DNA from: Hymenobacter yonginensis
GTDB lineage: Bacteria > Bacteroidota > Bacteroidia > Cytophagales > Hymenobacteraceae
Assembly (NCBI RefSeq): GCF_027625995.1
Contig: NZ_CP115396.1
Location: forward strand, 4,402,501 to 4,466,500
Direction: 5' to 3'
DNA: 64,000 bases
This document shows, in pieces, positions 6,104-61,478 of the stretch; the stretch's first letter is position 1; each line of letters opens with the position of its first letter. The notes below the pieces were generated by a model. The model searched no databases, was not told where the DNA came from, and worked only from the letters and a program-made list of their open reading frames with translations. The position numbers were made by a program, and so were the translations under genes.

Positions 6104-6191
6104 TAGCGAGTATTCAGTATTAAGTAGTGAGATTGGGGATGCCCCAAGCCAACCTGTCTTAATACTTACTACCAACTACTCAATACTACAA
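6104..6191 (+). repeat. inverted-word element 1 (atpF-atpH gap)
   Basis: The gap between atpF and atpH is filled by two arms built from permuted words of the form AGTATT and AGTAGT. The left arm is 6104-6131 and the right arm is about 6158-6190. AGTATTAAG (6116-6124) pairs exactly with CTTAATACT (6158-6166). A small tip hairpin TTGGGG-ATG-CCCCAA sits at 6133-6147. The element starts right after the atpF stop and ends four bases before the atpH ATG. Confidence 0.8.
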
Positions 6192-6194
6192 GCA

Positions 6195-6755
6195 ATGTCT
6201 GAACTACGAGTTGCCTCCCGCTATGCCAAGTCGTTGCTCGATTTGGCCGAGGAGCAGGGTACGCTGGAGCAGGTGAAGGACGACATGGACTTGTTCAACA
6301 AGACGTTGACCGAGAGCCGCGACCTGCGCCTGTTGCTGCGCAACCCCATCGTCAAGCACGACAAGAAGCTGGCCATCCTGCGCGCCGTATTCGGGGGCAA
6401 GGTGTCGAACCTCACCGAGAAGTTCTTCACCATCGTCACCCAGAAAAACCGCGAAAGCGCGCTGGAATTTATTGGTGCCGAGTTTCTGACCCAATACAAC
6501 AGCCTGCGCGGTGTGCAGCTGGCCGAAGTCACGACGGCTATGCCGCTGACGCCGGCCCTGCGCACGGAGCTGGAGTCGCTGGTTCGCCAGCAGACCGGCC
6601 TCCAGCAGGTGACCCTCACCGAGAAGGTGGACGCTTCGCTGATTGGCGGCTTCGTGCTGCGCGTCGGCGACCGGCTCCTCGACGACTCTGTGAGCTTCCG
6701 GTTGCGCAAGCTGCGCACCGAATTCTCGAAGAACCCCTACCAATCTCAACTATAA
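6195..6755 (+). CDS. atpH: ATP synthase subunit delta
   Basis: This 186-residue protein is the delta (OSCP-type) subunit joining F1 to the peripheral stalk. It shows the family layout: a helical N-terminal half ([33 protein letters not shown]) and a C-terminal segment with the signature [20 protein letters not shown] near 147-166. The start codon is only four bases past the inverted-word element, so its ribosome-binding region lies inside the right arm of that hairpin. atpA follows after five bases, suggesting translational coupling. Confidence 0.95.
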
Positions 6756-6760
6756 TCCAC

Positions 6761-8344
6761 ATGGCAGAAGTACGTCCGGATGAAGTATCCGCCATTCTGC
6801 GGGAGCAGTTGTCCAACTTCAAAACCGAAGCCGAACTCGAAGAGGTTGGTACGGTATTGCAGGTTGGCGACGGTGTAGCCCGCATCTACGGCCTGGGCAA
6901 AGCCCAGTCGGGGGAATTGCTCGAATTTGAAAACGGCCTGCAGGCCTTGGTGCTCAACCTTGAAGAAGACAACGTAGGTGCCGTAATGCTCGGCGACTAC
7001 AGCGAAATCCGCGAGGGCGCCACGGTGCGCCGCACCAATAAGATTGCCTCCATTCAGGTAGGCGAGGGCATCGTGGGCCGCGTGGTAAACACGCTGGGCC
7101 AGCCCATCGACGGCCGCGGCCCTATCCAGGGCCAGACCTACGATATGCCCCTGGAGCGCAAAGCACCCGGTGTAATCTTCCGTCAGCCCGTAACGGAGCC
7201 GATGCAGACCGGTATTAAGGCTATCGACGCCATGATTCCGATTGGCCGTGGCCAGCGCGAGCTGATCATCGGTGACCGTCAGACGGGTAAGTCGACGGTA
7301 GCTATTGACACCATCCTCAACCAGCGCGAGTTCTATGAGCGCGGCGAGCCGGTTTTCTGCATCTACGTAGCCGTAGGCCAGAAAGCCTCCACCGTGGCCC
7401 AGGTAGTAAACGCCCTGACCAAGGGTGGTGCTATGGACTACACCGTAGTGGTTTCAGCTTCGGCCTCTGACCCCGCTCCGATGCAGTTCTTCGCGCCCTT
7501 CACGGGTGCCGCCATCGGCGAGTTCTTCCGCGACACGGGCCGTCCGGCTCTGGTAGTGTACGATGACTTGTCGAAGCAGGCTGTGGCCTACCGCGAGGTG
7601 TCGCTGCTGCTGCGTCGTCCTCCCGGACGTGAGGCATACCCTGGTGACGTGTTCTACCTGCACAGCCGCCTGCTGGAGCGTGCCGCGAAGATCAACGCTT
7701 CCGATACCATCGCCAAGGACATGAACGATCTGCCGGACAGCATCAAGCACTTGGTGAAAGGTGGTGGCTCGCTGACCGCTCTTCCACTCATCGAAACCCA
7801 GGCCGGTGACGTTTCGGCGTACATCCCAACCAACGTAATTTCGATTACGGACGGCCAGATCTTCCTCGAAACCAACTTGTTCAACTCCGGTATCCGCCCT
7901 GCTATCAACGTAGGTATCTCGGTATCGCGCGTGGGTGGTAACGCCCAGATCAAGTCGATGAAGAAAGTGGCTGGTACGCTGAAGCTCGATCAGGCCCAGT
8001 TCCGCGAACTGGAAGCCTTCGCCAAGTTCGGCTCCGACCTCGATGCCTCGACCAAGCTCACCATCGAGCGTGGCCGTCGTAACCTCGAAATCCTGAAGCA
8101 GCCCCAGTTCTCGCCCCAGCGCGTGGAAGATCAGGTGGCCGTTATCTACGCCGCTACCAACGGTCTGCTCGACCAGGTGCCCGTAAATAAGGTGCGCGAG
8201 TTTGAGAAGGAGTTTGTGCAGGTACTCAACACCCGCCACCCCGAGGTGCTGCAGGGTCTGAAAGCTGGTAAGCTCGACGACACCATCACCGGCGCCATCC
8301 GCCAGGTTGCCAAAGACCTGTCGGCGGTATACGCTTCGAAGTAA
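6761..8344 (+). CDS. atpA: ATP synthase subunit alpha
   Basis: This 527-residue protein is the non-catalytic nucleotide-binding subunit of F1. The Walker A motif GDRQTGKS is at 171-178. Other alpha signatures include the region near residue 145 ([20 protein letters not shown]) and the segment [15 protein letters not shown] in the second half. The length is usual for the family. It lies five bases after atpH, and an inverted-word element separates it from atpG. The catalytic beta subunit and epsilon are not in the window. In Bacteroidota these two genes commonly sit elsewhere as an atpD-atpC pair. Confidence 0.98.
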
Positions 8345-8345
8345 T

Positions 8346-8446
8346 TCATTAGTTGTCAGTTGTTGGTTGTCAGTTGTCAGGAAGAAGGTGCCGCAAGGCC
8401 GCTTCACTAAAACTGACAACCGACAACTAGCAACTGACAACTCATT
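8346..8446 (+). repeat. inverted-word element 2 (atpA-atpG gap)
   Basis: Arms at 8351-8380 and 8411-8442 are made of the word AGTTGTC and near variants (GGTTGTC, AGTTGCT), tandem in one arm and inverted in the other. The two arms align almost end to end as a 30-bp imperfect stem. The middle (8381-8410) closes as a smaller hairpin (GAAG...CTTC). It begins about five bases after the atpA stop and ends 13 bases before the atpG ATG. Confidence 0.85.
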
Positions 8447-8455
8447 TTCACGAGA

Positions 8456-9346: not shown

Positions 9347-9363
9347 GACGAGTCGTTTTACAG

Positions 9364-9401
9364 AAAAGCCCCGTGACCGGTTGGTCGCGGGGCTTTTTTT
9401 G
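9364..9401 (+). terminator. terminator of the ATP synthase cluster
   Basis: GCCCCGTGACC and GGTCGCGGGGC form a strong stem with a very short loop, flanked by an A run on the left and seven T bases (9394-9400) on the right. It lies about 20 bases after the atpG stop. Confidence 0.9.
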
Positions 9402-9424
9402 TGCCTGGCGGGGCCTCCTATCAG

Positions 9425-9571
9425 CCAAGGGTCGCATCTCTACACCGTCCCAACGGCGCGCACCACCGGGTGTTGCGGCGCGACCCTTCGCGTCTCGTCG
9501 TTGCTGAGGTTGGTATAGCCCGGCGGCTCTGGTCGAGCGAACAGGAGACGCGAAGGGTTGCGTCTCTACGC
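9425..9571. repeat. dispersed palindromic repeat, copy 1
   Basis: This stretch carries several copies of a word resembling GTAGAGACGCRACCCTT. AAGGGTCGCATCTCTAC (from about 9427) and AAGGGTTGCGTCTCTAC (from about 9553) are direct near-copies. GCGACCCTTCGCGTCTC (9480-9496) is the inverted partner of 9545-9561, with one mismatch in 17 bases. A related copy occurs at 16664-16707 in the opposite orientation. The rest of the 9402-9722 gap shows no gene I can support. Confidence 0.7.
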
Positions 9572-9722
9572 TGCGCCGGCCTATTGTTTCGGGCCTATCG
9601 TTTCGGACGCGTCCGAAATGGTGGTGGCCGTCACCGGGGCGCGGTATGGTGGCCAAGAACGCAGGTGCGCCGGGGCCTGCGGGCCGTGTTTTCTATCCTC
9701 CACCGTTTACCTCGCTTACCAT

Positions 9723-10343: not shown

Positions 10344-10366
10344 GGGAGGCACGCCCCCCGGCCCTG

Positions 10367-10395
10367 GCCCCGCCCCGTTTGGGGCGGGGCTTTTT
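10367..10395 (+). terminator. intrinsic terminator after the 206-residue unknown protein
   Basis: A perfect 10-bp stem (GCCCCGCCCC / GGGGCGGGGC) has a GTTT loop and is followed by five T bases. Confidence 0.9.
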
Positions 10396-10580
10396 GTTGG
10401 CTGGTGGGGCAGAGGGCGGCGGCCGCCGTGGCCCGGCAAGCAAGCCGCCAGCCGGAGGCCGCCCTTCCCAGCTGGCCTGCGCCGGCCACAGCCGGGAGGC
10501 AGCCGGCAGGGGCGGCGGCTACGTAAAAATAATTGTTGAAGTTGTTGTAGTAATCATAGGATAAACTGTCTGCTGCCCGG

Positions 10581-10588
10581 TATCTTTG
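10581..10588 (+). promoter_or_regulatory. -7 box TATCTTTG in the gap before the collar gene
   Basis: It matches TAnnTTTG exactly, downstream of an AT-rich patch. There is no clear TTG at -33. The next start codon is 382 bases away, so either the leader is long or the match is by chance. Confidence 0.35.
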
Positions 10589-16553: not shown

Positions 16554-16573
16554 CCGACGGATGCGGTAAACAC

Positions 16574-16604
16574 AAGAGCCCCGGCGCCTGGCGCCGGGGC
16601 TCTT
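16574..16604 (+). terminator. terminator after the 1602-residue T9SS gene
   Basis: A near-perfect palindrome of 15-base arms (AAGAGCCCCGGCGCC / GGCGCCGGGGCTCTT) lies 21 bases after the stop. The T run is short, so it may act with help or in both directions. Confidence 0.75.
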
Positions 16605-16663
16605 CGCGTGTAGGGGTGCGCCGCCCGGGGTTTCGGCATCCGGGCCGCCGGGGTGGGAGCGGG

Positions 16664-16707
16664 GAACAACGTCAGCAACGGGAAGACACGAAGGGGCGCG
16701 TCTCTAC
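16664..16707. repeat. dispersed palindromic repeat, copy 2 (inverted)
   Basis: On the minus strand this reads GTAGAGACGC, then CCCTTCG-GTCT, then CGTTGCTGA-GTTG. It matches 9480-9516 of copy 1 at most positions over about 35 bases, in the opposite orientation. It also carries the GCGTCTCTAC end seen at 9560-9568. Confidence 0.6.
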
Positions 16708-16729
16708 ATGGGTCTGGGGAGAGAAGCGG

Positions 16730-19300: not shown

Positions 19301-19416
19301 GGGGATTTCGTTTCTGGTTGTTCGTCTTGCGGTTGCGTATAGCCGCCGGGAAATGACGCCAAGCCGAAACGTCCCCTACTAAACACGAAAAACAAACAAC
19401 GAATAACGAACAACCT
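19301..19416 (+). repeat. inverted-word element 3 (pafA-ppa gap)
   Basis: GGTTGTTCGT (19316-19325) pairs perfectly with ACGAACAACC (19406-19415). GGGGATTTCG (19301-19310) pairs imperfectly with CGAAACGTCCCC (19365-19376). The right arm repeats the words AACGAA and AACAAAC. It begins two bases after the pafA stop and ends five bases before the ppa ATG. Confidence 0.75.
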
Positions 19417-20125: not shown

Positions 20126-21022
20126 ATGTCCGTTGCGCGCGCAATACCCGGGTTTCTGCTGTCGGTGGGGCGGCGTCTGCGGCGCCCGCTCGATGCCGTG
20201 CTTTATAGCAGCGCCTGGCTTTCGGCGGCGGCGCTGGGGCTGATGTGGGCCACGTTTCTGTTCTGGCGGGTGCATATTCCGGGGCGGCTGGGGGTGCTCA
20301 TTTTCGCGGCCACGTTGTGCCTCTACAACCTCGACAGCGTGCTGCCCTACAAGCACAGTCAGCACCCGGGCGTGTCGGGCCGCAAGCGCTGGATGCGGCG
20401 CCACCGCTGGCCACTGGCGGCCGTGGCCCTGGTAGCCGGAGCGGTGGCCGGCGTACTGTTTCTGGCCGATGACCGCCTGCGGCCACTTACCCCGTTTCTG
20501 GTGCACTTGGCCCTCATTTCGGGGCTCTATTCGCTGCCGCTGGTCAGGCGCCATGGCCGCTGGCGCGCCCTCCGCGACCTGCCGCTGCTTAAGGTGTTCC
20601 TGATTGCCTATGTGTGGGCGGGCGTCACCGTCTGGATTCCGGCGCTGTACCTGGGGCGGCCGCTGGCCGAGCCGGCGGTGCTGGCTCTGTTTGCCCGGCG
20701 ATTCCTGTTCGTGCTGGCGCTGGCGCTCGTGTTCGACATCCGCGACCATACCAAGGACCGCCTGATGGGCACCCTCACATTTCCGGGCGTGCTGGGGGTG
20801 CCGGCCACCAAGTATCTGGCGCTGGCGGCGCTGGTGGCGGCCAACGCCTGGCCGCTGCCCCAAATGTTGGCAGGGCAGGTACTGGTGCTGGCGCTGCCCT
20901 CCGTGGCCGGGGCCGCCGTCATCTGGCACGCCCACGAATCCCGCCCCGACTACTATTTCGCCCTACTCACCGACGGCGTTATGCTCCTGCAGTTTCTGGC
21001 CGCATTGGTAGTGAGTATCTAG
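20126..21022 (+). CDS. UbiA-superfamily prenyltransferase-like membrane protein
   Basis: This 298-residue protein has about eight or nine predicted membrane helices. The second aspartate motif of UbiA prenyltransferases is clear (DIRDHTKD, near residue 200). The first is weak (YNLDSVLPYKHSQHP, near 67-81, instead of NDxxDxxxD). It could be a divergent quinone, heme or carotenoid prenyltransferase, or a UbiA-fold protein with another role. The substrate cannot be read from the context. Its last codons (encoding VVSI) and its stop are part of the inverted-word element that follows. It is convergent with the NAD(P)HX repair gene. Confidence 0.6.
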   Translation: MSVARAIPGFLLSVGRRLRRPLDAVLYSSAWLSAAALGLMWATFLFWRVHIPGRLGVLIFAATLCLYNLDSVLPYKHSQHPGVSGRKRWMRRHRWPLAAVALVAGAVAGVLFLADDRLRPLTPFLVHLALISGLYSLPLVRRHGRWRALRDLPLLKVFLIAYVWAGVTVWIPALYLGRPLAEPAVLALFARRFLFVLALALVFDIRDHTKDRLMGTLTFPGVLGVPATKYLALAALVAANAWPLPQMLAGQVLVLALPSVAGAAVIWHAHESRPDYYFALLTDGVMLLQFLAALVVSI

Positions 21023-21141
21023 TAGGGAGTGGTGAGTATGTGGTAGGAATAAAGATTTTGATAATCAGAACATTAGTTGGATTCGGCTTCCCGCTGCTGG
21101 ATTCTTGCCACTGAGTACTCACTACCAAATAATTCCCACTC
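21006..21141. repeat. inverted-word element 4 (convergent gap)
   Basis: GGTAGTGAGTA (21007-21017) pairs perfectly over 11 bases with TACTCACTACC (21116-21126). The arms are permutations of GTGAGTA, GTAGG and GGAGTGG. The left arm contains the final codons and stop of the UbiA-like gene, and the right arm reaches the stop codon of the convergent gene at 21140. The spacer 21050-21108 is AT-rich. It could serve as a two-way transcript end. Confidence 0.8.
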
Positions 21142-27056: not shown

Positions 27057-27148
27057 GTAGCAAGTACTGAGCGTCGGGTAGTCAGACATAGGTACTGATT
27101 ATTGAGCTTCTCACTACCCAATACTTATATCCAGCTACTCATCAGAAG
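27057..27148. repeat. inverted-word element 5 (downstream of sdaAA)
   Basis: Left-arm words GTAGC, AAGTACTGA and GGGTAGT (27057-27082) pair in nested order with ACTACCC (27113-27119), CAATACTT and GCTAC (27134-27138). The element begins at the base after the sdaAA stop. A conventional terminator follows at 27158-27189, so here the element and a terminator stand side by side. Confidence 0.75.
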
Positions 27149-27212: not shown

Positions 27213-30200
27213 TTATTCCTTGGTGATGCGGCGCACATCAAGCCCACCTTCGGTGCGGGCACGCAGGATGTAGACGCCGGCCGGCAGCTGGCGCAGATCC
27301 AGCGTAGCGGTCTGCACGCCGGGCTGGCCCGACAGCGTACGCTCCAGCACCTGCTGGCCTACGGCGTTGTAGACACGCAGCTCCGTGGCTTTGGTATAGC
27401 CGCGCAGCTCCACGGTCAGGTTACCGTCGGGCGTAGGGTTGGGGTACACGCTCAGGGCCGCGCCGGCCAGCGGCTTCACGCTGCTGTTGACGAGCAGCGG
27501 GGCCGAGGGCAGCGAGGCGCAGCCCGTGGCAGCGTTGGTTACCACCACCGTGTACTGGCCAAACTGGGCCGTGGTGTTCACCACGTACGTGGGGTTGGTA
27601 GCGCCGGGAATCAGCGTGCCGTTGAGGTACCACTGGTTGCCCGTAGCGCTGGAGCTGGTGAGCGTGGTGGTGGCCCCGTTGTACACCGGCGACACCGTAG
27701 GCTGGGCCGGACGGGCGTTGATGGTTACCGTGAAGGTAGCCGTAGTAGCAGCGCAGGCGCCCGAAGCTGCCACCGTGTTGGTCACAACGTAGGTGCCAGC
27801 CGTGGAAGTGCCTGGCGTGATAACGCCGGTGGTGGCGTTAATGGTCAGGCCGGTAGGGGCGCTGAACGTGCCAGCGGTAGCGCCGGTGGACAGCGTTGGC
27901 GCGGCCGTGCCGGTAGCGCCGGCGCAATAGGCAGCATTCGCGTAGCTGAACGTCGCTACCGGAGCCGCCGTAATCGTCACGCTGAACGTGGCCGTAGCCG
28001 CGGCGCAACCGCCGGATGCCGCTACCGTGTTGGTCACGGTGTAGGTGCCGGGCGTGCTGGTGCTGGGCGTGATGGCGCCCGTGGTGGCATTGATGCTCAG
28101 GCCCGTAGTGGAGCTGAATGTGCCGGCCGTGGCACCCGTGGCCAGCGTAGCAGCGGCCGCAGTGGTCTGCGAGGCGCAGAAGCTGGTGGCTGCGTAGCTG
28201 AAGCCGGCCGTGGCCGGAGCCGTGATGGTCACGCTGAACGTGGCGGAGGCGGGGCAGGCGGTGCCGGCCGTGTACGTCACGGTGTACGTGCCGGGTGTCG
28301 AGGCCGTCAGGTTGATGGCACCGGTGGCAGCGTCAAGGCTCAGGCCGGTAGGAGCGCTGAACGTACCGCCGCTGGTGCCCGTCACGGTAGCTACCGGGTT
28401 GGTGCCGCTCTGGCAGAACGTGGCAGCGCTGTAGCTGAAGGCAGCCGAGGCGGCCGGCGTAATTGTAACCGACTGCGTGGCCGATACTGCCGGGCAGGCG
28501 CCCGAGGCGGCAACAGCGTAGGTCACGGTGTAGGTGCCGGGCGTGCTGGACGAAGGCGTGATGGCGCCCGTGGTGGCGTCAATGGTCAGGCCGGTAGGGG
28601 CGCTGAACGTGCCGCCCGTAGCTGCACCGCTGGCCAGCGTGGCCGCCACCGGAGCAGTGGAGCTGGCGCAGATGGTTCCGGCGGGGTACGAGAAGGCCAC
28701 CGTGCGCGGCGTGCTCACGATGCTCAGCGGCGTAGCCAGGGTGTTGTTGGCGGCGTTTTCGTCGCCGGTTACGGCCACCGTGGCCGTCAGCGAGTACGTA
28801 CCAGCGGCCGACAGGTCGGCGGTGCCAACCGGCACTACCAGTGAGGCGCCGGGAGCCAGCGTGCCGGTGTTTACCGTGGCGGTCAGGGTCTGGGGCGTGG
28901 CGCCGCCCGTTACGGTAGCCGTAATGGTGGCCGGCGTAACGGCGAAGTCCAGCGCGGTAGCAGCGTTGTTGCGGATCGTGACGGACACGGCCTCCGTGGC
29001 CGAGTAGCAGCCGGCGCCGGCCGTAGGGCCGGTAAGAGCGGCCGTGGCCAGGTCGAGCAGCGCGAATTCGTCGGCCCCGATGTCGGGCGTGTTAGCCGCG
29101 CGGGTCTGGCCATCGAAGTCCACCGTGATACCCGCTACGGGTACGCCGGCGTTGTTGAGGGCCGCGCTGGTGCTGTGCAGGTCCGTGGCCGAAACAAACT
29201 GCGGATCGGCAGTTTTCGAGGTGGCCGGATTGTCCTGGCCAGTTTCGGTGTTGAGGTCGGCCAGCGTGGTGCGGGCAATACCTGCCGGCACCAGGCCGCC
29301 GGTCTGGCCTACCAGGAAGGCAGCGCCCGAACCCACAAAGAAGTCGTTGTTGGAAGACGTCAGGCCTGCGTAGGCACCGGTGGTGCTGCTGTAGGCCAGG
29401 CCCAGGGCCACGCTTTTGCCGGTGCCCGTGGTCTGGGTGATGGCCAGCACGTTGTTGCGGATGTCAACGGTAGGCGTGGTGCCGCCCACTGCCAGCGCGA
29501 AGTTGGGCTGGTTGCCGCCGGTCTGGGTGCCGCTCATGTTTACTGAGTTGAAGGCTACCCGGGTGGTCGAGCCGGTTCCGCCGCCCAAGAAGATGCCCGC
29601 CCCGAAGTCGCCGGCCGTGCCGTTCGACGAAACGCCGGCCACCATGTTGTTGCTGATAACCGACGTGCCCGACGTGGCCGCGGCCAGCGCAATGCCGGCG
29701 GCCGAATAGGTATTGGTCTGCTGCACCGTGCCCACATAGTTGCGGTCAATGGTGGCGTTGGTTACCTCGTTGCCGGCATACACGTTGTTGGTGATGCCAG
29801 TGAAGCCCAGGTTGATGCCCCACACGTCGGCGCTAGCCGCCGAGTTGATGCCATCCACCCGGTTCTGCGTCACCTGAATACCGTCCTCGAACAGGCCGGT
29901 GATGCCGTAGCGCCCGATGGCACCGGTACCCGTCACGGTCATGTCGTTCTGGGTGATGATGGTGCCGGTGTTTTTCACGGTAGCGCTGGGGCCTACCGAG
30001 TAGATACCGAAGGTCGCGCCCGATACCGCATTGTTCTGCACCACGTTGTTGGCGTTGCCGACGGTGTTGGTGGTGGCGGAGAGCATCAGAATGCCGGCCT
30101 GCGCCGTAGCGCCGCCGCTGCCGCTCACCGTCAGGTTGCGGAACGTGTTGTTGGAGGCGTTGTCGGCACCGGAGTTGGGTACCGTCAGCACGATGCCGTT

Positions 30201-33200
30201 GCTGGTGGTGGCCGTGCTGGTGTTGCTCAGCGTCCAGTTGCGGCTGGGGCGTGGGTCGGTGCCGGAAATGGTGCCGCCGCTGTTGCCGTCAAGTATTACG
30301 TAGTCGGCGCCTACCAGCGCAATCAGCGCCGTGGCGTTGCTGCCCGTCAGGCTGGTCGAGAGGCCGGACACGGGTTTGATGGTGAGCGTGTTGGTGGCCG
30401 AAGCCGTGGTGTTGTTGGAAATCAGAATCGGGAACGTCTCAGCCGGGCCGTAGCTGGTATCCAGCAGCAGGAACGTCACGGGGCCGGCCAGCAGGTTGTT
30501 GCTGTAGGCCTGCGTGGCCGCCGTCAGGGTGGCGTAGGTGCGGGTGGGGTCAGGCGAAGTGCCCGTGCCCACGTAGTAGGTGCCGCTGAGCTGGCCCTGA
30601 ATCAGGAACTGATACACGCTGGTTGGCGCCGTAGTGAACGTGCCGCCCGCAGGGTTGCTGCTCACGTTGGCGTTGGTGCTGGCATCCTGCGCCACCACGT
30701 AGTACTGAATGGCATCGAAGCCCGAAACGCCGCCCACCAGGGCAAAATCAAACGTGAACGTGTACACGTCGCCGCTCACGCTGCTGGCTGTCACGCTCTG
30801 GAACGCGCCGCTGTTGCCCTTGCGGAAAAACAGCCGCGGGGCGTTGGCGCCGGTGGCAATCCCGCTGGCATCCACAATCGTGACGGACAGAGTCCGGTTG
30901 GCGGTGCTGGTCGTGTTGCTGAGGGGAGTCAGGGTGATGACCGGTACGCTCATGTCAAGCGGCACAAAAGTGCCCTCGTCGGCCCCGATATCGGGTAGCG
31001 TCCCACGGGTTTCGCCGTCGTAGTCCACGGTCAGGCCGCTGATGGGAGCAGCGGCGCTTTCCGCCTGCGTGGGCACGGAAGGACTCAGATGCAGGAAGCC
31101 CGCAGCCGTTCCGGTGGTGCTCACAAACGTCGGGTTTTCCGTCAGCGAGTTCTGCTCGCGCGCGGCCACGTAGGCGCGGTAGGCGGCCAGCGTCTGCTGC
31201 GGGTTGGCCAGGGTGGTTGTGCCCTCGGCGTAAATCAGGTTGGCCGCACCGGGCGTGCCGGCGTAGTAGATGTTGTTGTTGGTGGTGCCAGCCAGGCTGC
31301 TGCCCGGCGCGGCCGTGTAGCGCAGTGCCACCGTAGCGCCGCCCGTGCTGCCCGGCGTGGAGTTGTTCACCACCAGGTTGTTGCGCAGGTCCACTACCGG
31401 CACCAGGGACGCCGCGTAGATGCCCGACGTGCCAAAAGTGGCCGAGGACGACACCGCCGCCAGGTACAGCGTGTTGTAGTACAGGTTGACGTTGGTGCCG
31501 CTGTTGATGAACACCCCGCTCACGGCATTCATGCCGCTGGAAGTCGGGGCCGTCAGGTCGCCGATCAGGTTGTTGCTGGCCGTAATGGCCGAGCCGGTGC
31601 TCAGAAACAGGCCATACACTGTGCCGGCCGTAGCGGCGGCGGAGAGGCCGTAGATCTTGTTGCGCGAAATGCTCACCGAGTTGCCGGCAATCGACTGAAT
31701 GCCGTACACCGTGCCGCCTACCGCTAGACTCAGATTGCCGATGACGTTCTGGCTGACGAGCTTGGTGGTGGTGCTGGCCGGGTTGGTCAGAATACCACTG
31801 ATGGCCGAAGTCGACGAGGACGTGCTGCCCTCCACCGAGAGGTTGGTGATGATGTTGTTGGTCACCGTTTCCGAAGGCGGCGAGCTGAAGTTGTAGTACC
31901 CGTTTAGGGTGGAGCTGCTCGTGCCGCTCGATACAATGCGGTTGTTGCTGATGGTGTTGCCCGAGGCCGTAACGGCCGCCGTGCCCGCACTGATGCAGAA
32001 CATAGTGCCGCTGGTACTGGCCGTCGAGCCACCTTTGGTATTGCCGCTGAGCTGATTGTTGAGGATGTTGAGCGTTGTGGGGCCGCTGCCCGATATCAGG
32101 TAGAATGCCCCCGTGCCCGGCACCGTGTTGTTGCTGACGGTATTGCCCGAGATATTGACCGTGCCCGCCGTGGCTGAGTTATACAGGCCGTAGAAAATGC
32201 CGCTCGTGGCCGTGGTGTAGGTGCAACCCGTCACGGTATTGCCCGTGATGTTGATGGTGTTGGTCGTGCCCGTCGCTCCGATGCCGCTCTCGATGCCCGA
32301 CAGCTGCGACGTGGTGGCGCCGCTGGCCAGGGTCACGGTGTTGTTGAGGAAGTCGAGGCTGGCGGCGGCGCCGGCGTTGCCGTAGATGCCGCGCAGCGTG
32401 CTCGTGACGGTGGAAGCCGCTACCGGCGTCGAGGCCGTGGCCGAAGTGTAGTTGGCCGTGCTGTTGACCAGGTTGTTGGCCACTTTGTAGCCGTTCTGGT
32501 AGTTGCCGCCAATGCCCCATCCCGAAGCCGAGCCGCCGAAGTTGCCGACGGTGTTGCCGGCTGCCGCGCCGGCGGGCGTCAGGCCCACCTGGTTGTTCTG
32601 GTCGAAGTTGGCCAGTGGCGTAGTGGCACTGCCCGCCGAGAAGTCAATGCCTTTCAGAGCATTGCTCACCACGTTGCCGTACACCAGGTTGTTGGAGTTG
32701 GCGCCGGCCGGGCTGGTGGCCGGTATTGCCGTAGCGCTGGCCGTGCCCGAAGCCAGCCCCGCAATACCGATGGTAGCGGCATTGGTCTTGTTGAGCGTCA
32801 CCACGCAGTTGCGGATGATGTTGTTCTGGCAGCCATCCGTAGCCGAAGCCCGAAACAGCCCGTAGCCAAACTCCATCTGCGTGGTTGTGGTGGTATTGGT
32901 GGCGCTTTCCGCCACATCAAGGCCGTCAAACGTCACGTAGTCGGCCCCCGAAAGCCGGATGATGCCATCGGTGGTGGTGCTGGCCCCGGCGCCGGCCGTG
33001 ATGAGCGGATTGGCCCCGGTCCCGGCTTTTTGGAACACGATTGGGTTAGCCGCCGTGCCGCTCGCCGTCAGCGTGAGGTTGGCGGCGGTTTCGGTGTAGC
33101 CCGCCGCAATGTTGATGGTGACCCCGCCCGCCGGCACGCCGTTGGTATTCAGGTCGGTGATGGCCGCCGCTAGGGTGGCATAGTCACCCGGCAGGGTGCG

Positions 33201-33341
33201 CACCGTCTGGGCCTGGGCCGCCGTGGCCCCCAGCAGACCCAGCAGGGCCAGCAGCGGCAGGCGCCGCTGCCAGCGGCCGGTTTGCAGCCCCGGGGCGGGG
33301 TGGGTCCCGTCGGTGGCTGCTGTTAGTAAAGATGTAAGCAT
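27213..33341 (-). CDS. giant beta-helix T9SS-exported surface protein
   Basis: This 2042-residue secreted protein has a signal peptide ending ATAAQAQ at about 45. Two long right-handed beta-helix regions (about 45-800 and 970-1420) consist of Asn/Thr-rich turns such as NNTVTLASGATTSQL and ISGNTVSNNTV. An Ig-like stretch lies between them and a CARDB-like domain follows (about 1430-1540). Four tandem modules of 75-85 residues come next (about 1540-1875), each with a conserved FSY opening, one early and one late cysteine, and GTFSAPTGL then TPGTYTVT. An Ig-like domain and a T9SS type-A sorting domain (about 1965-2042, LSVYPNPTPDGNL, GVYILRART) close the chain. The architecture suggests an adhesin or polysaccharide-binding filament. 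No catalytic residues could be assigned. Confidence 0.88.
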   Translation of the reverse strand: MLTSLLTAATDGTHPAPGLQTGRWQRRLPLLALLGLLGATAAQAQTVRTLPGDYATLAAAITDLNTNGVPAGGVTINIAAGYTETAANLTLTASGTAANPIVFQKAGTGANPLITAGAGASTTTDGIIRLSGADYVTFDGLDVAESATNTTTTTQMEFGYGLFRASATDGCQNNIIRNCVVTLNKTNAATIGIAGLASGTASATAIPATSPAGANSNNLVYGNVVSNALKGIDFSAGSATTPLANFDQNNQVGLTPAGAAAGNTVGNFGGSASGWGIGGNYQNGYKVANNLVNSTANYTSATASTPVAASTVTSTLRGIYGNAGAAASLDFLNNTVTLASGATTSQLSGIESGIGATGTTNTINITGNTVTGCTYTTATSGIFYGLYNSATAGTVNISGNTVSNNTVPGTGAFYLISGSGPTTLNILNNQLSGNTKGGSTASTSGTMFCISAGTAAVTASGNTISNNRIVSSGTSSSTLNGYYNFSSPPSETVTNNIITNLSVEGSTSSSTSAISGILTNPASTTTKLVSQNVIGNLSLAVGGTVYGIQSIAGNSVSISRNKIYGLSAAATAGTVYGLFLSTGSAITASNNLIGDLTAPTSSGMNAVSGVFINSGTNVNLYYNTLYLAAVSSSATFGTSGIYAASLVPVVDLRNNLVVNNSTPGSTGGATVALRYTAAPGSSLAGTTNNNIYYAGTPGAANLIYAEGTTTLANPQQTLAAYRAYVAAREQNSLTENPTFVSTTGTAAGFLHLSPSVPTQAESAAAPISGLTVDYDGETRGTLPDIGADEGTFVPLDMSVPVITLTPLSNTTSTANRTLSVTIVDASGIATGANAPRLFFRKGNSGAFQSVTASSVSGDVYTFTFDFALVGGVSGFDAIQYYVVAQDASTNANVSSNPAGGTFTTAPTSVYQFLIQGQLSGTYYVGTGTSPDPTRTYATLTAATQAYSNNLLAGPVTFLLLDTSYGPAETFPILISNNTTASATNTLTIKPVSGLSTSLTGSNATALIALVGADYVILDGNSGGTISGTDPRPSRNWTLSNTSTATTSNGIVLTVPNSGADNASNNTFRNLTVSGSGGATAQAGILMLSATTNTVGNANNVVQNNAVSGATFGIYSVGPSATVKNTGTIITQNDMTVTGTGAIGRYGITGLFEDGIQVTQNRVDGINSAASADVWGINLGFTGITNNVYAGNEVTNATIDRNYVGTVQQTNTYSAAGIALAAATSGTSVISNNMVAGVSSNGTAGDFGAGIFLGGGTGSTTRVAFNSVNMSGTQTGGNQPNFALAVGGTTPTVDIRNNVLAITQTTGTGKSVALGLAYSSTTGAYAGLTSSNNDFFVGSGAAFLVGQTGGLVPAGIARTTLADLNTETGQDNPATSKTADPQFVSATDLHSTSAALNNAGVPVAGITVDFDGQTRAANTPDIGADEFALLDLATAALTGPTAGAGCYSATEAVSVTIRNNAATALDFAVTPATITATVTGGATPQTLTATVNTGTLAPGASLVVPVGTADLSAAGTYSLTATVAVTGDENAANNTLATPLSIVSTPRTVAFSYPAGTICASSTAPVAATLASGAATGGTFSAPTGLTIDATTGAITPSSSTPGTYTVTYAVAASGACPAVSATQSVTITPAASAAFSYSAATFCQSGTNPVATVTGTSGGTFSAPTGLSLDAATGAINLTASTPGTYTVTYTAGTACPASATFSVTITAPATAGFSYAATSFCASQTTAAAATLATGATAGTFSSTTGLSINATTGAITPSTSTPGTYTVTNTVAASGGCAAATATFSVTITAAPVATFSYANAAYCAGATGTAAPTLSTGATAGTFSAPTGLTINATTGVITPGTSTAGTYVVTNTVAASGACAATTATFTVTINARPAQPTVSPVYNGATTTLTSSSATGNQWYLNGTLIPGATNPTYVVNTTAQFGQYTVVVTNAATGCASLPSAPLLVNSSVKPLAGAALSVYPNPTPDGNLTVELRGYTKATELRVYNAVGQQVLERTLSGQPGVQTATLDLRQLPAGVYILRARTEGGLDVRRITKE
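27717..28720 (-). repeat. four tandem modules within the beta-helix T9SS protein
   Basis: Four successive units of about 230-255 bases encode the same module: FSY, a cysteine within ten residues, GTFSAPTGL or a variant, ATTGAITPSTSTPGTYTVT, a second cysteine and SVTIT. Units three and four share the longest identical runs, suggesting recent duplication. Confidence 0.85.
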
Positions 33342-38959: not shown

Positions 38960-39063
38960 TGGGGTTCGTTTTTCGATTTTTCGCGCCTCGTTTTTCGGGT
39001 TTGACTTTTCGGTTTGTGGCGCTGCTGAGGCCAGAAAACGGAAAACGAAGCACGAAAAACCCA
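38960..39063. repeat. inverted-word element 6 (upstream of ispF)
   Basis: The left arm (38962-39016) repeats words such as TTCGTTTTTCG, ATTTTTCGCG and CTTTTCGG. The right arm (39031-39063) holds the inverted words CGGAAAACGAAG and CACGAAAAACCC. The rest of the gap to 39256 holds an A-rich stretch and the promoter of the TetR gene, with no further gene seen. Confidence 0.75.
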
Positions 39064-41586: not shown

Positions 41587-41665
41587 GGAGCCAGAAGTCA
41601 GAAGCTAAGAGCTAGAAGCTTCTGACCCGGCCGCGTACCCATGTTCTAGCTCCTCACTCCTTCGC
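41587..41665 (+). repeat. inverted-word element 7 (TolC-adaptor gap)
   Basis: GTCAGAAGCT (41597-41606) pairs perfectly with AGCTTCTGAC (41617-41626). GAGCTAGAA (41609-41617) pairs with TTCTAGCTC (41644-41652), so two alternative hairpins compete for overlapping bases. The words are GAAGCT, GAGCTA and GGAGC. It begins at the base after the stop and ends 18 bases before the adaptor ATG. Confidence 0.75.
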
Positions 41666-56650: not shown

Positions 56651-56735
56651 ACTAAGGATGTTCGGCAGGAAAGAGAAGAGAAAACGAGCCCCGGGCCCGT
56701 GTGGCAGCAGGCGGCGCAGCACAGTGCCGGAGGTT

Positions 56736-57047: not shown

Positions 57048-59855
57048 ATGGTTGAATTAGAAGTGGTTACTGGGCGTGCTCAGACTGCCGGATTCCTGAA
57101 GCGTATGGCTGCAGGTGGGTGGTGGGCGATGCTGCTCCTGGTAGCCGGCTGCCAGCCGGTCGCGAAGGAGGCGGTGTACCGCATTGGCTTTTCGCAGTGC
57201 ACCACCAACGACGCCTGGCGCAAGGCTATGCTGGCTGGTATGCAGAAGGAGCTGAGCTTCCACCCGAACGTGGAGTTTCAGATGCTGGACGCGCACAACA
57301 ACAGTGACCTGCAGCGCCGGCAGGTGCGGGAGCTGATCCGGCAGCGCGTAGATCTGCTGCTGATTTCGCCCAACCAGTCGGGCCCGCTGACGGAGCTGGC
57401 CGAGGCCGCCTACAACCAGGGTATTCCGGTCGTGATTCTGGACCGCCGCACCACCTCGCGCCTGTACACAGCCTACGTCGGCGGCAACAACCTGGAAGTG
57501 GGCCGCACGGCCGGCCACTACGCCGCCCAACTGCTGCAGGGCCGCGGGCAGGTGCTCGAAATCACCGGCACGCCCGGCTCGTCGCCCGCCACCGACCGCG
57601 ACAAAGGCTTCCGGCAGGCGCTGGCGGCACACCCGGGTGTGCAGCTGGCCGCGCAGGTGGAAGGCAACTGGCTGCCCGGCTCGGTAATGGAGCAACTGCC
57701 CGCCGTGCTGCGCGCCCATCCCGAAACCAAACTCATCTTCGCCCACAACGACCCCATGGCGCGGGCCGCCTACCAGGTGGCGCGCCGCCTCGGCATCGAG
57801 CGGCGCCTCCGCATCATCGGGGTGGATGGGCTGGCCGGCCCCGGCAACGGCCTGCAGCTGGTGGAAGAGGGCATCATCCAGGCCACGCTGCTCTACCAGA
57901 CCGGGGGCGAGGAAGCCATCCGCACGGCTCTGCGCATCTTACGGCACGAGCCCTTCCTGAAAGACAACGTGCTGGGCACCATGGTCATCGACTCATCGAA
58001 CGTGACCACCATGCGCACCCAGACCGAGCAGCTGGTAGACCAGCAGCAGGACCTGGAGGGGCAGCAGCGCCACCTGCGCGAGCAGCAGCGCCGCTACGCC
58101 AACCAGGAGCTGACCGTGTACCTGCTGCTGGCCAGTTTGCTGGGCGCCGTGGTGCTGGGGGCCCTGGCGTGGCGCTCGTCACGCCTCAACCGCCGTATCC
58201 GGCGCATGGTGGAAGGCCAGAACGCCGAAATCAGCGCCCAGCGCAACCAAATTGCCGAGCTGGCCGAGGAGGCCCGCCGCTCCTCGGAAGCCAAGCTGCG
58301 CTTCTTCACCAACTTCTCGCACGAGCTGCGCACGCCGCTCACCCTCATTCTGGGGCCCGTGGAAGACATGCTGGCCAGCCCCACCGACCTCTCGCCAGCC
58401 CAGCGCCATGACCTGGCTCTGGTGCGCCGCAACACCCAGCGCCTGATGCAGCTGGTAAATCAGCTGCTGGCGTTCCGCAAAATCGACGTGGGCAAGATGG
58501 CCGTGCGGGCCGTGGAAGGCAACCTGGTGGAGTTTGTGCGCGAAATCATGGACGTGTTCGAGAAAACCGCCCAGAAGCGCAACATCACCTTCCGGTTTCT
58601 GCCCGCTCAACCCGTCATCTTTCTGTGGTTTGATGGCGACATCCTCGACAAGGTGTTCTTCAACCTGCTCTCCAACGCCTTCAAGTACACCCCCGACGGC
58701 GGTCGGATTGTGGTGAGCATGCAGCAGGACGTGGCCGCCGACACCGTGCGCATCAGCGTCGAAGACAACGGCCAGGGCATTGCCGAGGCCGACCAGCCGC
58801 ACATTCTGGAGTGGTTCTACCAGGGCCGGCAGCAGTCGGCCAACAGCTCGGGGCTGGGGCTGGCGCTGGCCGAAGGCCTCACGCGCTTGCACCAGGGCAC
58901 GCTTTCATTTCGGAGCCAGCCCGGCCACGGCACCACCTTCGACGTGACGCTGCCGCTCACCAAGCCGGCCACTTTCCTGGATGCCCCGGCCGGCCACACG
59001 CTCACGCCCCTCACTCTCGACACCGAGGAGGAAGTGCCGCTGGCCGCCGTTGCCTCGCCCGCCGACCCCGCCGCTCCCCCGGCCCCCGAGCCCACGGCCC
59101 TTATCATCGAAGACCACGACGAACTGCGCGGCTTTCTGGTGCAGAAGCTGCAGCCCCACTTCCGGGTAAGCACCGCCGCCGACGGCGCCACCGGCCTGCG
59201 CCTGGCCGCCGAAACCATCCCCGACGTGATAGTGTGCGACGTGAACCTGCCTGAGCTCAGCGGCCTGGAGGTGGCCACCGCCCTGAAAGGCGACTGGCGC
59301 ACCAGCCACATTCCGCTGGTGCTGCTCACGGCGCGCAGCGCGCCTGAGCAGCAGGTGGAAGGCGTGCAGGCCGGCGCCGACCTCTACCTTATCAAGCCGT
59401 TCAACCCCACGTTTCTGCTGGAAAGCCTGCGCACACTGCTGCGCAACCGCGACCAGCAGCGCGAGCATTTCCGGCGGCAGCTCTCGGGCGCCACGCCCAC
59501 CGTGGCCCCGCAGCGCGTCGACCAGAAGTTCCTGGCCGACCTCACGGCCATTATCGAAGGCCGCCTCGACCAGCCCGACCTGAGCGTGGATGGCATTGCC
59601 CACAGCCTCGGGGTGTCGCGCACGCAGCTCTACCGCAAGGTGAAGGCGCTGCTGGGCATCGGGGTGAACGAGTACATCCAGGGGCTGCGCCTCACCAAGG
59701 CCCGGCAGCTGCTGCTGCAGGAAGGCAGCACGGTGGCCGAAGTGGCCTACCAGACCGGCTTCTCCTCGCCCTCGTATTTCTCCACGGCCTTCAGGGGCAA
59801 GTACGAGGTGTCGCCCACCGAATTCAAGGCCATGCACACGCCTATGCGCACCTGA
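57048..59855 (+). CDS. one-protein sugar sensor: binding domain, kinase, receiver, AraC
   Basis: This 935-residue hybrid two-component system holds in order: an N-terminal hydrophobic leader with a lipobox-like LLVAGC; a LacI-type periplasmic sugar-binding domain (about 43-330, YRIGFSQCTTNDAWRKAML); a membrane helix (about 362-382); the kinase with H425 (NFSHELRTPLT) and an ATPase domain; a receiver with D731 (VIVCDVNLP); and an AraC DNA-binding domain (about 825-930). The architecture matches Bacteroides BT1754, a fructose sensor that controls fructan use. The genes after it (porter, fructokinase, GH32) fit that role. A later ATG at 57105 is an alternative start. Confidence 0.92.
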   Translation: MVELEVVTGRAQTAGFLKRMAAGGWWAMLLLVAGCQPVAKEAVYRIGFSQCTTNDAWRKAMLAGMQKELSFHPNVEFQMLDAHNNSDLQRRQVRELIRQRVDLLLISPNQSGPLTELAEAAYNQGIPVVILDRRTTSRLYTAYVGGNNLEVGRTAGHYAAQLLQGRGQVLEITGTPGSSPATDRDKGFRQALAAHPGVQLAAQVEGNWLPGSVMEQLPAVLRAHPETKLIFAHNDPMARAAYQVARRLGIERRLRIIGVDGLAGPGNGLQLVEEGIIQATLLYQTGGEEAIRTALRILRHEPFLKDNVLGTMVIDSSNVTTMRTQTEQLVDQQQDLEGQQRHLREQQRRYANQELTVYLLLASLLGAVVLGALAWRSSRLNRRIRRMVEGQNAEISAQRNQIAELAEEARRSSEAKLRFFTNFSHELRTPLTLILGPVEDMLASPTDLSPAQRHDLALVRRNTQRLMQLVNQLLAFRKIDVGKMAVRAVEGNLVEFVREIMDVFEKTAQKRNITFRFLPAQPVIFLWFDGDILDKVFFNLLSNAFKYTPDGGRIVVSMQQDVAADTVRISVEDNGQGIAEADQPHILEWFYQGRQQSANSSGLGLALAEGLTRLHQGTLSFRSQPGHGTTFDVTLPLTKPATFLDAPAGHTLTPLTLDTEEEVPLAAVASPADPAAPPAPEPTALIIEDHDELRGFLVQKLQPHFRVSTAADGATGLRLAAETIPDVIVCDVNLPELSGLEVATALKGDWRTSHIPLVLLTARSAPEQQVEGVQAGADLYLIKPFNPTFLLESLRTLLRNRDQQREHFRRQLSGATPTVAPQRVDQKFLADLTAIIEGRLDQPDLSVDGIAHSLGVSRTQLYRKVKALLGIGVNEYIQGLRLTKARQLLLQEGSTVAEVAYQTGFSSPSYFSTAFRGKYEVSPTEFKAMHTPMRT

Positions 59856-60021
59856 CCCAATTTTGCAAGTGGCGCATCAAAAGTGAATGTGGGGCTGGTG
59901 CGAGGAAGGTGATTGGGATTGTATAGGTTTGATATATAATGTTTTGTCGAGGTGTATAGACCTGCACCAATTCTTAAAGTATTTGGCATGATTGGGCACG
60001 TGGCGGGCTGAGAATAGCCGG

Positions 60022-61368
60022 ATGTTTACGAAAACTTCTTCGGCTATGCTTCCACGCAACGTACTCTTCTGGTCCATCGTCACGGCGCTCGGCGGCTTCC
60101 TGTTCGGCTTCGATACGGCCGTGATTTCGGGCGCCGAGAAAGCCATTCAGCAGCTCTGGCACCTGAGCGCCTTCGAGCACGGCTTCACCATTTCCATTGC
60201 CCTGATCGGGACGGTTATCGGGGCCATCTTCGGCGGTATTCCTTCCGATAAGCTGGGCCGCCGCCAGACACTACGCGGCATTGCGGCGCTGTATCTGGTG
60301 TCGGCAGTGGGCACGGCGCTGGCGCCGGGCTGGGGCCTCTTTATGGTGTGCCGGTTTCTGGGCGGGCTGGGTGTAGGGGCTTCGTCGGTTACGGCGCCGC
60401 TGTATATCTCCGAGATTTCGCCAGCGGCCTCGCGGGGCAAGCTGGTGGGGCTGTTTCAGTTCAACATTGTCACGGGCATTCTGGTCGCCTACCTCTCCAA
60501 CTACCTGCTGGCGGGCCTCGGCGAGCATTCGTGGCGCCTGATGCTGGGCGTGCAGGCCGTGCCCGCCCTGATTTTCCTGCTGCTGCTGTTCCGGGTGCCC
60601 GAAAGTCCCCGCTGGCTGCTGCTACACGGCCGCCTCGACGAAGGCCGGCAGGTGCTGGCCCGCATCAGCCCCGGCACCGTCGATGCCGACGCGGCCGCCA
60701 TCCTCACCAGCCAGGCCGACACGGCCCACCACAGCGAGTCGTTGTGGGCCGGGCAGTACCGCACGCCGGTGCTGCTGGCCGTGGCGTTTGCCTTCTTCAA
60801 CCAGGTGTCGGGCATCAACGCCATCATCTACTACGCTCCGCGCATCTTCGAAATGACGGGGCTGGGCCAGGGCGCGGCCTTGCTGTCGTCGGCCGGTATC
60901 GGGCTTGTGAACTTCATTTTCACGCTACTGGGCGTGAACCTGATTGACCGGTTTGGGCGGCGCACGCTCATGCTGGTAGGCTCCGTGGGGCTGATTGCCA
61001 CACTGGGGCTGGTGGCGCGGGCCTTCTACACCGAGCAGTTTGGGGGCGTGCTGGTGCCGGTGCTGCTGTTCGTGTACATCGCCTTTTTCGCTTTCTCGCA
61101 GGGCGCCGTCATCTGGGTATTTATCTCCGAAATCTTCCCCAACGCCGTGCGGGCCAAAGGCCAGGCGCTGGGCTCGTCTACACACTGGGTGATGGCCACG
61201 GCCATTGCCTTCACCTTCCCCTACTTCGCCGAAAAGCTGGGCGGCGGCAACACCTTCGCCTTCTTCTGCGCCATGATGGTGCTGCAGCTGGTGTTCGTGT
61301 GGCGCTTCATGCCCGAAACCAAAGGCACCAGCCTCGAAAGCGCCGAACGGGTGCTGGTGATGCACTAA
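60022..61368 (+). CDS. MFS sugar porter (probably fructose)
   Basis: This 448-residue, 12-helix transporter is of the sugar porter family. Signatures include GGFLFGFDTAVISGAE in helix 1, DKLGRRQTL and DRFGRRTLM between helices 2-3 and 8-9, PESPRWLLLHGR after helix 6, QVSGINAIIYYAPRIFE in helix 7, and PETKGTSLE at the end. Its place between a fructose-type sensor and a fructokinase suggests it imports fructose across the inner membrane. The ATG at 60022 replaces a TTG ten codons earlier. An AT-rich region in 59856-59991 may hold the promoter. Confidence 0.9.
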   Translation: MFTKTSSAMLPRNVLFWSIVTALGGFLFGFDTAVISGAEKAIQQLWHLSAFEHGFTISIALIGTVIGAIFGGIPSDKLGRRQTLRGIAALYLVSAVGTALAPGWGLFMVCRFLGGLGVGASSVTAPLYISEISPAASRGKLVGLFQFNIVTGILVAYLSNYLLAGLGEHSWRLMLGVQAVPALIFLLLLFRVPESPRWLLLHGRLDEGRQVLARISPGTVDADAAAILTSQADTAHHSESLWAGQYRTPVLLAVAFAFFNQVSGINAIIYYAPRIFEMTGLGQGAALLSSAGIGLVNFIFTLLGVNLIDRFGRRTLMLVGSVGLIATLGLVARAFYTEQFGGVLVPVLLFVYIAFFAFSQGAVIWVFISEIFPNAVRAKGQALGSSTHWVMATAIAFTFPYFAEKLGGGNTFAFFCAMMVLQLVFVWRFMPETKGTSLESAERVLVMH

Positions 61369-61478
61369 CTGGGGTGGGGGATTGGCGGGTTGGTGTATTT
61401 CGAGGCTGCCCATCCACCAACCCGCCTATCCACCAACCCACCACCCCGCCCATCCACCAATCCGCCAACCTCTCAACC
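61369..61478 (+). repeat. inverted-word element 8 (porter-fructokinase gap)
   Basis: GGCGGGTTGGTG (61384-61395) pairs perfectly over 12 bases with CACCAACCCGCC (61415-61426). The right side also contains three near-direct copies of (C/T)ATCCACCAA (from about 61411, 61428 and 61451), each followed by a CCRCC-like word. It begins at the base after the porter stop and ends about nine bases before the kinase ATG. Confidence 0.85.

Follow-up and report, generated by a model that had tools for sequence, protein, structure and literature searches.

How can a gap between two genes keep a hairpin of the same position, length and shape throughout a genus while its sequence is exchanged wholesale between near-identical neighbours? 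The question arises in a stretch of 64,000 nucleotides from Hymenobacter yonginensis (contig NZ_CP115396.1, positions 4,402,501 to 4,466,500; hereafter the window, numbered from its first base), in which an initial annotation had described eight gaps filled with short tandem words that are inverted between two arms. From comparative sequence analysis and predicted folds we consider it moderately likely that these elements are interchangeable intercistronic hairpins that tune operon stoichiometry in the manner of the SRPS stem-loops and are built of heptamer words like the P6b hairpin of the Nostoc trnL intron. As the shape is kept and the sequence swapped, selection on RNA structure can be separated here from selection on sequence more cleanly than usual.

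The exchange is most readily followed in the operon of the F-type ATP synthase, where two elements lie in the window. E1, in the atpF-atpH gap (6101..6188), has AGTATT/AGTAGTG words in arms at 6101-6132 and 6157-6188, and E2, in the atpA-atpG gap (8348..8445), has (A/G)GTTGT(C/T) words in arms at 8348-8380 and 8413-8445 with a minimum free energy (MFE) z of -10.6. From 116 matching genomes we read 78, the 38 left out being mostly more distant ones, and these made 89 rows together with ten named loci and the window. Seven rows in which atpA differed by at most one base were merged, and the counts below refer to 81 Hymenobacter with distinct atpA. One locus with a long branch (L020) stays in the atpA tree and is omitted from the flank tests, and L018, which covers the same place, is omitted from the gap survey; atpA of their genome, G006, is in two pieces with a TAA within the first, which is either a sequencing error or a real lesion. 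An MFE z below -2 was obtained for the atpF-atpH gap in 78 and for the atpA-atpG gap in 80 of the 81 Hymenobacter, with interquartile ranges of gap length, stop codon included, of 90-97 nt and 96-114 nt, respectively, and in 76 the atpH-atpA gap measures under 25 nt. Word periodicity was significant in 72 of the atpF-atpH and 67 of the atpA-atpG gaps, with a period of 7 in 66 and 62 of them.

The sequences within this constant frame fall into 28 clusters at atpF-atpH and 33 at atpA-atpG (single-link identity of 72%), numbers that are an upper bound on independent replacements because divergence from a common ancestor may account for some clusters, such as the AATTATG sets. Hairpins whose words are significant were found in 24/28 and 22/33 clusters, and several of the remaining clusters are plain or otherwise dispersed palindromes. 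Other dispersed palindromes (TGTCATCCTGAGC... / ...GCTCAGGATGACA) were also seen in the same intercistronic slots where relatives have word hairpins (atpA-atpG of L011, L157 and L030, and stretches of G003). Even among close species the median gap identity is about that of shuffled sequence (null mean 0.48, 99th percentile 0.557), and at 94-97% atpA identity the gaps were related in 15 of 37 pairs at atpA-atpG and 13 of 37 at atpF-atpH. The closest genome compared, G001, is 97.7% identical to the window across 1500 nt of atpA; its atpF-atpH element is identical to E1, while its atpA-atpG element is unrelated to E2 (51%). E2 is instead common to G003 (99%), G007 (86%), rigui (86%) and citatus (82%), and E1 is identical in G003 too, with different words in G007, G008 and others. 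Mapped on the atpA tree, the 33 and 28 states require 49 and 45 changes, so some alleles recur. We compared 214 orthologous gaps between G001 and G003. A word element is present in one or both genomes at 26 of these; 13 of the 26 were unrelated in sequence versus 62 of the 188 without words, a non-significant difference (Fisher p = 0.12), so spacer turnover is common here generally. In 21 of the 26 word gaps the other genome has a significant hairpin too, sometimes from a quite different dispersed family.

To assess selection on the stem we aligned eight of the 61 allele classes (AG0-AG3 from atpA-atpG and FH0-FH3 from atpF-atpH); the structures were derived from the same alignments, which biases the analysis toward pairing. 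Paired columns vary less than loop columns in all eight, with minor-letter frequencies (paired/loop) of 0.022/0.250, 0.028/0.292, 0.109/0.397 and 0.099/0.265 in AG0 to AG3, and 0.083/0.308, 0.185/0.359, 0.092/0.302 and 0.040/0.163 in FH0 to FH3. Pairing was possible in 88-99% of cells, compared with 8-66% after one arm had been slid by 1-3 columns. Two-sided changes exceeded all 200 reshuffles in AG2 (10/34 pairs) and AG3 (12/50). The other classes weaken the case: covariation was borderline in AG1 (2/28; 7/200 reshuffles) and FH0 (4/18; 15/200), stood at reshuffle level in FH1 (9/28; 90/200), FH2 (3/20; 98/200) and FH3 (1/29; 115/200), and AG0 contained no two-sided change. A selected stem therefore has good support in two classes, the others being only compatible with it. 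The slid- and reshuffled-arm controls weakened the covariation claim and slightly lowered our confidence in a functional role.

Outside the atp operon the same design is frequent. A detector that requires both an inverted repeat and tandem words found 80 elements among 836 gaps from Hymenobacter (1.30 Mb), whereas 836 shuffled gaps yielded none, disposing of the concern that shuffled gaps would match real ones, although the 80 are not independent as orthologues in related genomes were counted separately. Their period is 7 in 49, 8 in 24, 9 in 5 and 6 in 2. In 70 other loci, mostly from named Bacteroidota, 35 elements were found in 701 gaps, a rate that is no genome average, since all these loci surround atpA. 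Co-directional gaps are enriched (72 of the 80 elements versus 573 of all 836 gaps, Fisher p ~3e-6), six elements being convergent and two divergent. The anatomy was measured on one representative per atp cluster (57 of the 61 had a stem score of at least 9): a median of 5 nt separates the start of the stem from the stop codon's first base, and the stem has arms of 30 nt and ends a median of 11 nt ahead of the next start codon. G exceeds C in the 5' arm of 77 of the 80 word elements, with the reverse in 2, and in 49 versus 7 of the 57 atp clusters; other significant hairpins gave 140 with G > C versus 184 opposite. Since the arms are inverted, this polarity is true on both strands. A T tract (at least six T in the 10 bases past the stem) follows 3 of 59 word elements compared with 31 of 221 other hairpins, on which ground we rejected intrinsic terminators as an explanation. 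About half of all gaps carry some significant hairpin (139/272 and 133/252 in 408-kb stretches of G001 and G003). A shared phase motif, TNRG-NNN, reached 3.64 bits against a shuffled-letter mean of 3.24 and a maximum of 3.49 in 30, a margin too small to support a claim, and one to which the C-poverty of the 5' arm may contribute. The 408-kb stretches also hold nine-base word hairpins (CGGATTTNA and GCAGAGG types) of the same design as the heptamer hairpins.

Placement is what points to a role for these hairpins. ATP synthase contains about ten c subunits, two b, one delta, three alpha, one gamma and one a. In a fold survey of up to 96 loci, z was below -2 for 85/86 of the folded gaps at atpE-atpF, 35/47 at atpF-atpH, 71/80 at atpA-atpG, 12/50 at atpH-atpA and 2/8 at atpB-atpE; hairpins are thus mostly found where subunit number drops, from c to b, from b to delta and from alpha to gamma, and rarely where it rises, as from a to c or from delta to alpha. 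The atpE-atpF gap of the window (5444..5608, + strand) follows the same positional rule with a strong ordinary hairpin (MFE z -7.1) in which words are not significant. The atpA-atpG hairpin is ordinary in several other genera, and word-built in Hymenobacter and several sphingobacterial genera. A second operon behaved alike: the rplJ and rplL products stand in a ratio of 1 to 4, and z fell below -2 in 0/30 rplJ-rplL gaps and in 27/28 rplL-rpoB gaps, where the step is a fall (rpoB starts were set by a crude script, no rpoB gap was obtained from two of the 30 loci, and z was not computable for one rplJ-rplL gap). In 23 of these 30 loci (L240-L269) the rplL-rpoB gap contains a hairpin of conserved sequence (CCTGGC..GCCAGG, then TCTTTTCC), in contrast to the atp hairpins, which switch.

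We propose that the arms, each made of degenerate 7- or 8-base words, would pair in the transcript as a stem of about 30 bp, within a module that spans from at or just before the upstream stop codon to about 11 bases ahead of the next start codon. The stem may protect the 3' end of the upstream cistron after processing, limit expression of the downstream one, or both, such that neighbouring genes of one operon would be made in unequal amounts. In evolution, hairpins with other words have repeatedly taken over the spacer, the replaced stretch being bounded close to the stop and start codons; the exchange would use very short tracts, and new words would spread across both arms via repeated templated copying.

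Several observations weigh against a stoichiometric role, which we infer from placement. The copy-number rule comes from one operon and has had a single further trial, which was not blind, as an attenuator ahead of rpoB is known from E. coli and the expected direction was not set down beforehand; moreover, only 10 of 28 rplL-rpoB gaps pass the inverted-repeat test, and the hairpin there is ordinary with a T-rich tail. Within the atp operon, the 12 of 50 folded atpH-atpA gaps break the rule, and in Hymenobacter five of 81 such gaps are long enough to fold and all five have z < -2. Outside Hymenobacter the atpF-atpH gap is mostly short (median 9 nt; 11/23 folded at z < -2). Eight of the 80 elements lie in convergent or divergent gaps, to which a stoichiometry role is inapplicable, and one element of the window (E6, described below) lies in a 5' leader; some loci lack an element altogether (at the places of E6 and E7). 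Finally, this function leaves the word composition of the stem unexplained.

The exchange itself raises the question of what moves a unit of about 100 nt so precisely. Homologous recombination via the flanking genes, which would swap ready-made spacers and is compatible with a function of the hairpin, is a candidate that we rate as possible rather than probable. Intergenic region (IGR) switching of this kind is already known from E. coli and S. aureus, as far as the accessible part of PMC5890482 goes, and a near-identical donor would leave the recombined flank invisible. We compared switched and unswitched pairs at atpA identities of at least 93%, excluding pairs with upstream identity below 75% or downstream identity below 70% and leaving gap identities of 0.66-0.72 out of both groups; the comparison carries no significance test. 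Switched pairs were more diverged in the last 15 nt upstream (0.183 vs 0.103 at atpA-atpG, 0.133 vs 0.013 at atpF-atpH), whereas the first 15 nt downstream showed no such excess (0.013 vs 0.028 and 0.006 vs 0.010), nor did the first 30 nt downstream as a whole. Further out the atpA-atpG pairs are alike (0.081 vs 0.064 at 30-60 nt upstream), whereas switched atpF-atpH pairs are somewhat more diverged throughout (for example 0.079 vs 0.048 at 60-120 nt downstream), so the atpF-atpH groups are imperfectly matched. An excess confined mainly to the last 15 nt upstream argues against recombination that reaches into the genes. So does L167, which belongs to the clade of L004 and L162, both with another allele, yet carries the element of L156 (98% identical including the loop, at 88.9% atpA identity): the letters of its sister resume 4 nt upstream and 21 nt downstream, and no donor-like letter occurs within 60 nt on either side.

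In 50 such cases, which are partly reciprocal and include one misaligned upstream (L189) that inflates the donor-like counts, donor-like letters were not enriched near the gap, amounting upstream to 28% within 60 nt versus 28% at 61-300 nt and downstream to 9% versus 20%. Recombination gains from the order of these letters, since one or more donor-like letters come before the first letter of the sister in 16/50 cases upstream, compared with 3/50 downstream. It gains also from far pairs with a common allele, which are more alike in the last 45 nt upstream (residuals of +0.149 at atpA-atpG and +0.060 at atpF-atpH; 0/500 label shuffles each), a likeness that counts against a pure swap of the unit. 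The signal lacks a smooth decay, returning to +0.099 at 225-270 nt, and we attribute it to the upstream margin of the swapped unit together with kinship. As a test of imported flanks, the far-pair likeness thus speaks weakly in favour and the boundary data speak against beyond about 15 nt.

These same boundaries would suit an unrecognised exchange process in Bacteroidota that swaps intercistronic hairpins of about 100 nt as units, with breakpoints near the stop and start codons and no further flanks imported, and that draws on a genus-wide pool of heptamer-word hairpins of fixed polarity (G-rich 5' arm, C-rich 3' arm). We put this forward only tentatively and regard it as somewhat unlikely. 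If it holds true, expression-tuning parts of core operons would evolve as interchangeable modules.

Words recur as families. RGTTGTY in three tandem copies occurs at 17 separate places in G003 and four in G001, and was absent from all six genomes outside the genus. The backward-read control matched at 3, 4, 5 and 2 places in G008, G009, G010 and G015, possibly through other heptamer arrays, and at none in G003 and G001; for AATTARG this control is uninformative because the reversed word is its own rotation. Of the RGTTGTY places we fetched 15 of 17 in G003 and three of four in G001, and 13 of the 15 in G003 are hairpins with those words in the arms and, by eye, unrelated loops. The word sets AATGGYTG, AGTGCTTAG and GTGATGAGG recur three to four times in 408 kb of G001 (by eye). 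The initial annotation had taken the words to differ between loci and the elements to be locus-specific rather than dispersed copies. The former is true in part, as the gaps at 6104, 21006 and 27057 have a common AGTA/GTAGTGAG word family (by eye); the latter is too strong, since a given word family can be found at many loci and in many species.

Dispersal of this kind is what selfish mobile repeats would produce, MITE-like or REP-like, that favour gene 3' ends, use the hairpin for their own mobility and owe the conserved place to an insertion hot spot. The dispersed word families (the 17 places in G003, with word arms at 13 of the 15 read), the other dispersed palindromes in the same slots of sister genomes, the sharp bounds of the swaps and the presence of E6 only in the window among the relatives compared all agree with such repeats. 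We nevertheless find them an unlikely explanation. The loops, as judged by eye, are unrelated between loci of one family, which means that whole elements are not copied; two gaps keep a near-fixed length and near-universal presence across 81 species; variation is lower in paired columns than in loops; and plain hairpins occupy these sites in other genera. We noticed no target-site duplication on comparing E6 with G001, where a clean empty site is lacking.

A purely local origin, in which slippage and hairpin-templated copying rewrite the elements in place with no transfer between loci or species, had been favoured by the initial annotation and appears quite unlikely as a general account. Part of it stands. 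Orthologous elements of G001 and G003 show the same change across many word copies in both arms (CGGATT to CTGATT; GCAGAGG to GCAGTG), class AG2 has AATTAAG versus AATGAAG in both arms (all by eye), and the period of 7-8 bases stays constant as the words change. These concerted changes support templated copying as one of two processes, the second being replacement of the whole unit. Distant species carry the same alleles, in some cases loop included, through sharply bounded replacement, for which local slippage is insufficient on its own. We therefore reject a purely local origin for the recurrent alleles, on account of the excess of changes over states on the atpA tree and of the L167/L156 pair; for singletons it may still hold. 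Finally, Rho prefers C-rich RNA, and the elements could be Rho-dependent attenuators with a C-rich, G-poor 3' arm of 7-base spacing as a loading site masked by the G-rich 5' arm, in keeping with the strong arm polarity (77/80 versus 140 to 184) and the lack of a T tract, but the 3' arm is predicted to be paired and we consider this improbable.

Sister species that differ in the hairpin make the role of intercistronic hairpins in operon stoichiometry directly testable. Scans for sequence conservation would overlook the class.

We assessed the eight gaps of the window at the exact coordinates of the initial annotation against dinucleotide shuffles, scoring tandem words at periods 5-9. At most 2/200 shuffles matched the inverted repeat in seven gaps (0/200 at 6104, 8346, 21006, 38960 and 61369, 1/200 at 19301 and 2/200 at 41587), and the repeat was weak at 27057 (12/200). 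The tandem array was matched by at most 2/300 shuffles in six gaps (0/300 at 6104, 8346, 19301, 41587 and 61369; 2/300 at 38960) and was non-significant at 21006 (46/300) and 27057 (135/300). The description as inverted tandem words is thus borne out in six gaps, the one at 21006 being an inverted repeat only and the one at 27057 neither convincingly. The longest perfect cores, in order, are 9, 12, 10, 12, 7, 8, 10 and 12 bases and agree with the annotated range of 7 to 12, the 7- and 8-base cores alone being at chance level (68/300 and 85/300 shuffles). The best word period is 7 in seven gaps and 8 at 61369. At most 15/200 shuffles were as stable as any of the eight gaps. By called genes, five gaps are co-directional (6104, 8346, 19301, 41587 and 61369), two convergent and one divergent (38960).

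Beyond E1 and E2, comparison of the same gaps among related strains, as the initial annotation had suggested, revealed words switched at some loci and shared at others, and presence itself varies at E6 and E7. E3 (19307..19410), between phosphodiesterase and inorganic pyrophosphatase genes, has GTTGTTCG words in arms at 19307-19334 and 19382-19410; it is near-same in G001, with similar words in G007 and latericoloratus and a different sequence in G003 and gummosus. E4 (21006..21127), in a convergent gap, has TGGTAGTGAGTA arms at 21006-21017 and 21116-21127, the left one overlapping the 3' end of the upstream open reading frame; this frame is called to stop at 21022, so the gap, annotated as intergenic like the others, starts inside it. 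E5 (27057..27148), also convergent, combines GTAGT-type words in a weak hairpin with an ordinary terminator-like hairpin after it, and is shorter in G001. E6 (38960..39063), in the divergent gap by the start of a minus-strand gene, has CGTTTTTCG words in arms at 38977-38997 and 39039-39059 and is missing from G001, G003 and G007 despite flanking proteins of 95-99% identity. E7 (41587..41665), between genes for an outer-membrane efflux protein (OEP) and an HlyD-family protein, has AGAAGCT/AGAAGTC words with a core at 41597-41606 and 41617-41626; G007 has the same words, G001 different (switched) ones and G003 none. E8 (61370..61440), past a sugar transporter gene, has TTGGTGG-type words of period 8 in arms at 61370-61398 and 61412-61440, with more words to 61470; it is shorter in G001, and G003 is without the left arm.

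The window has a GC content of 63.6%. Its protein matches include the operon of the F-type ATP synthase, efflux genes and a large surface protein that carries a Por secretion tail, and the ten best named relatives of its AtpA are all Hymenobacter species. No Rfam match at the gathering threshold was found anywhere in the window, and ARAGORN found no tRNA in it. The protein of 2042 aa with the Por secretion tail is encoded at 27213-33341 and contains a 252-nt internal repeat at 27731-28202. A dispersed repeat marked by GAGACGCGAAGGG / GCGTCTCTACA motifs lies at 9347-9722 and 16554-16729 and is seen also in L233, its copies being both direct and inverted.

How do the elements compare with known systems? 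Like REP, BIME and REPIN sequences, they are intergenic palindromes in many copies, and REPs have a role in mRNA stability at malE-malF. REPs, as described in the accessible parts of the literature, form families of similar palindromes with GTAG or CGTC tags and a link to a tyrosine transposase; the Hymenobacter elements are without a shared sequence, forming 28 and 33 clusters at two sites with unrelated loops within a word family instead of near-identical copies. As for MITEs, inverted arms are present, and the comparison of E6 with G001, lacking a clean empty site, gave no duplication that we noticed. Closer are the TAACTGA and related heptamer direct repeats, which are intergenic, dispersed and patchy in Beggiatoaceae, Cyanobacteria and five Bacteroidetes (accessible part of PMC4679880). 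The seven-base unit, intergenic location, dispersal and phylogenetic patchiness are common to both, Bacteroidetes included. TAACTGA repeats are, in that part of the source, direct copies of a single heptamer that mostly lie shortly ahead of start codons, with one inverted case in the main genome studied; unlike TAACTGA/STRR, the Hymenobacter words are degenerate, form two inverted arms and begin at the stop codon.

The closest structural parallel that we compared is P6b of the Nostoc tRNA-Leu(UAA) group I intron, in which, according to the accessible portions of the two sources, degenerate heptanucleotide repeats base-pair into a hairpin (PMC3488679) and one heptanucleotide class (Class I/II) has repeatedly replaced the other with the site kept (PMC4476775). 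The Hymenobacter elements are likewise degenerate 7-base repeats predicted to pair as a hairpin. P6b has one intron site and two classes, whereas the Hymenobacter elements are intergenic, occupy many intercistronic sites, draw on dozens of word sets and show a 5'-G/3'-C polarity. For function, the parallel is with SRPS (SLOFE), stem-loops past selected cistrons that set the stoichiometry of operons including those of ATP synthase and ribosomal proteins (PMC8219983, in part); both place a stable stem-loop, predicted in the case of Hymenobacter, in the spacer that follows a cistron of an operon. SRPS are known for Clostridium species and B. subtilis, and the accessible part of that source does not mention word structure or exchange of hairpin sequence. 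For the exchange, the parallel is with IGR switching, or horizontal regulatory transfer, in E. coli and S. aureus, where an unrelated spacer replaces the old one and the flanking genes stay (PMC5890482); there, as far as the available sections go, it is not tied to one structural class, whereas replacement at the atp sites is nearly always by a hairpin of similar length. The initial annotation knew of no named class with these traits, and we likewise found no description of the class in Hymenobacter, its name or its unit-wise exchange in the open-licence PubMed Central (PMC) literature, although the heptamer repeats and the Nostoc hairpin are close relatives.

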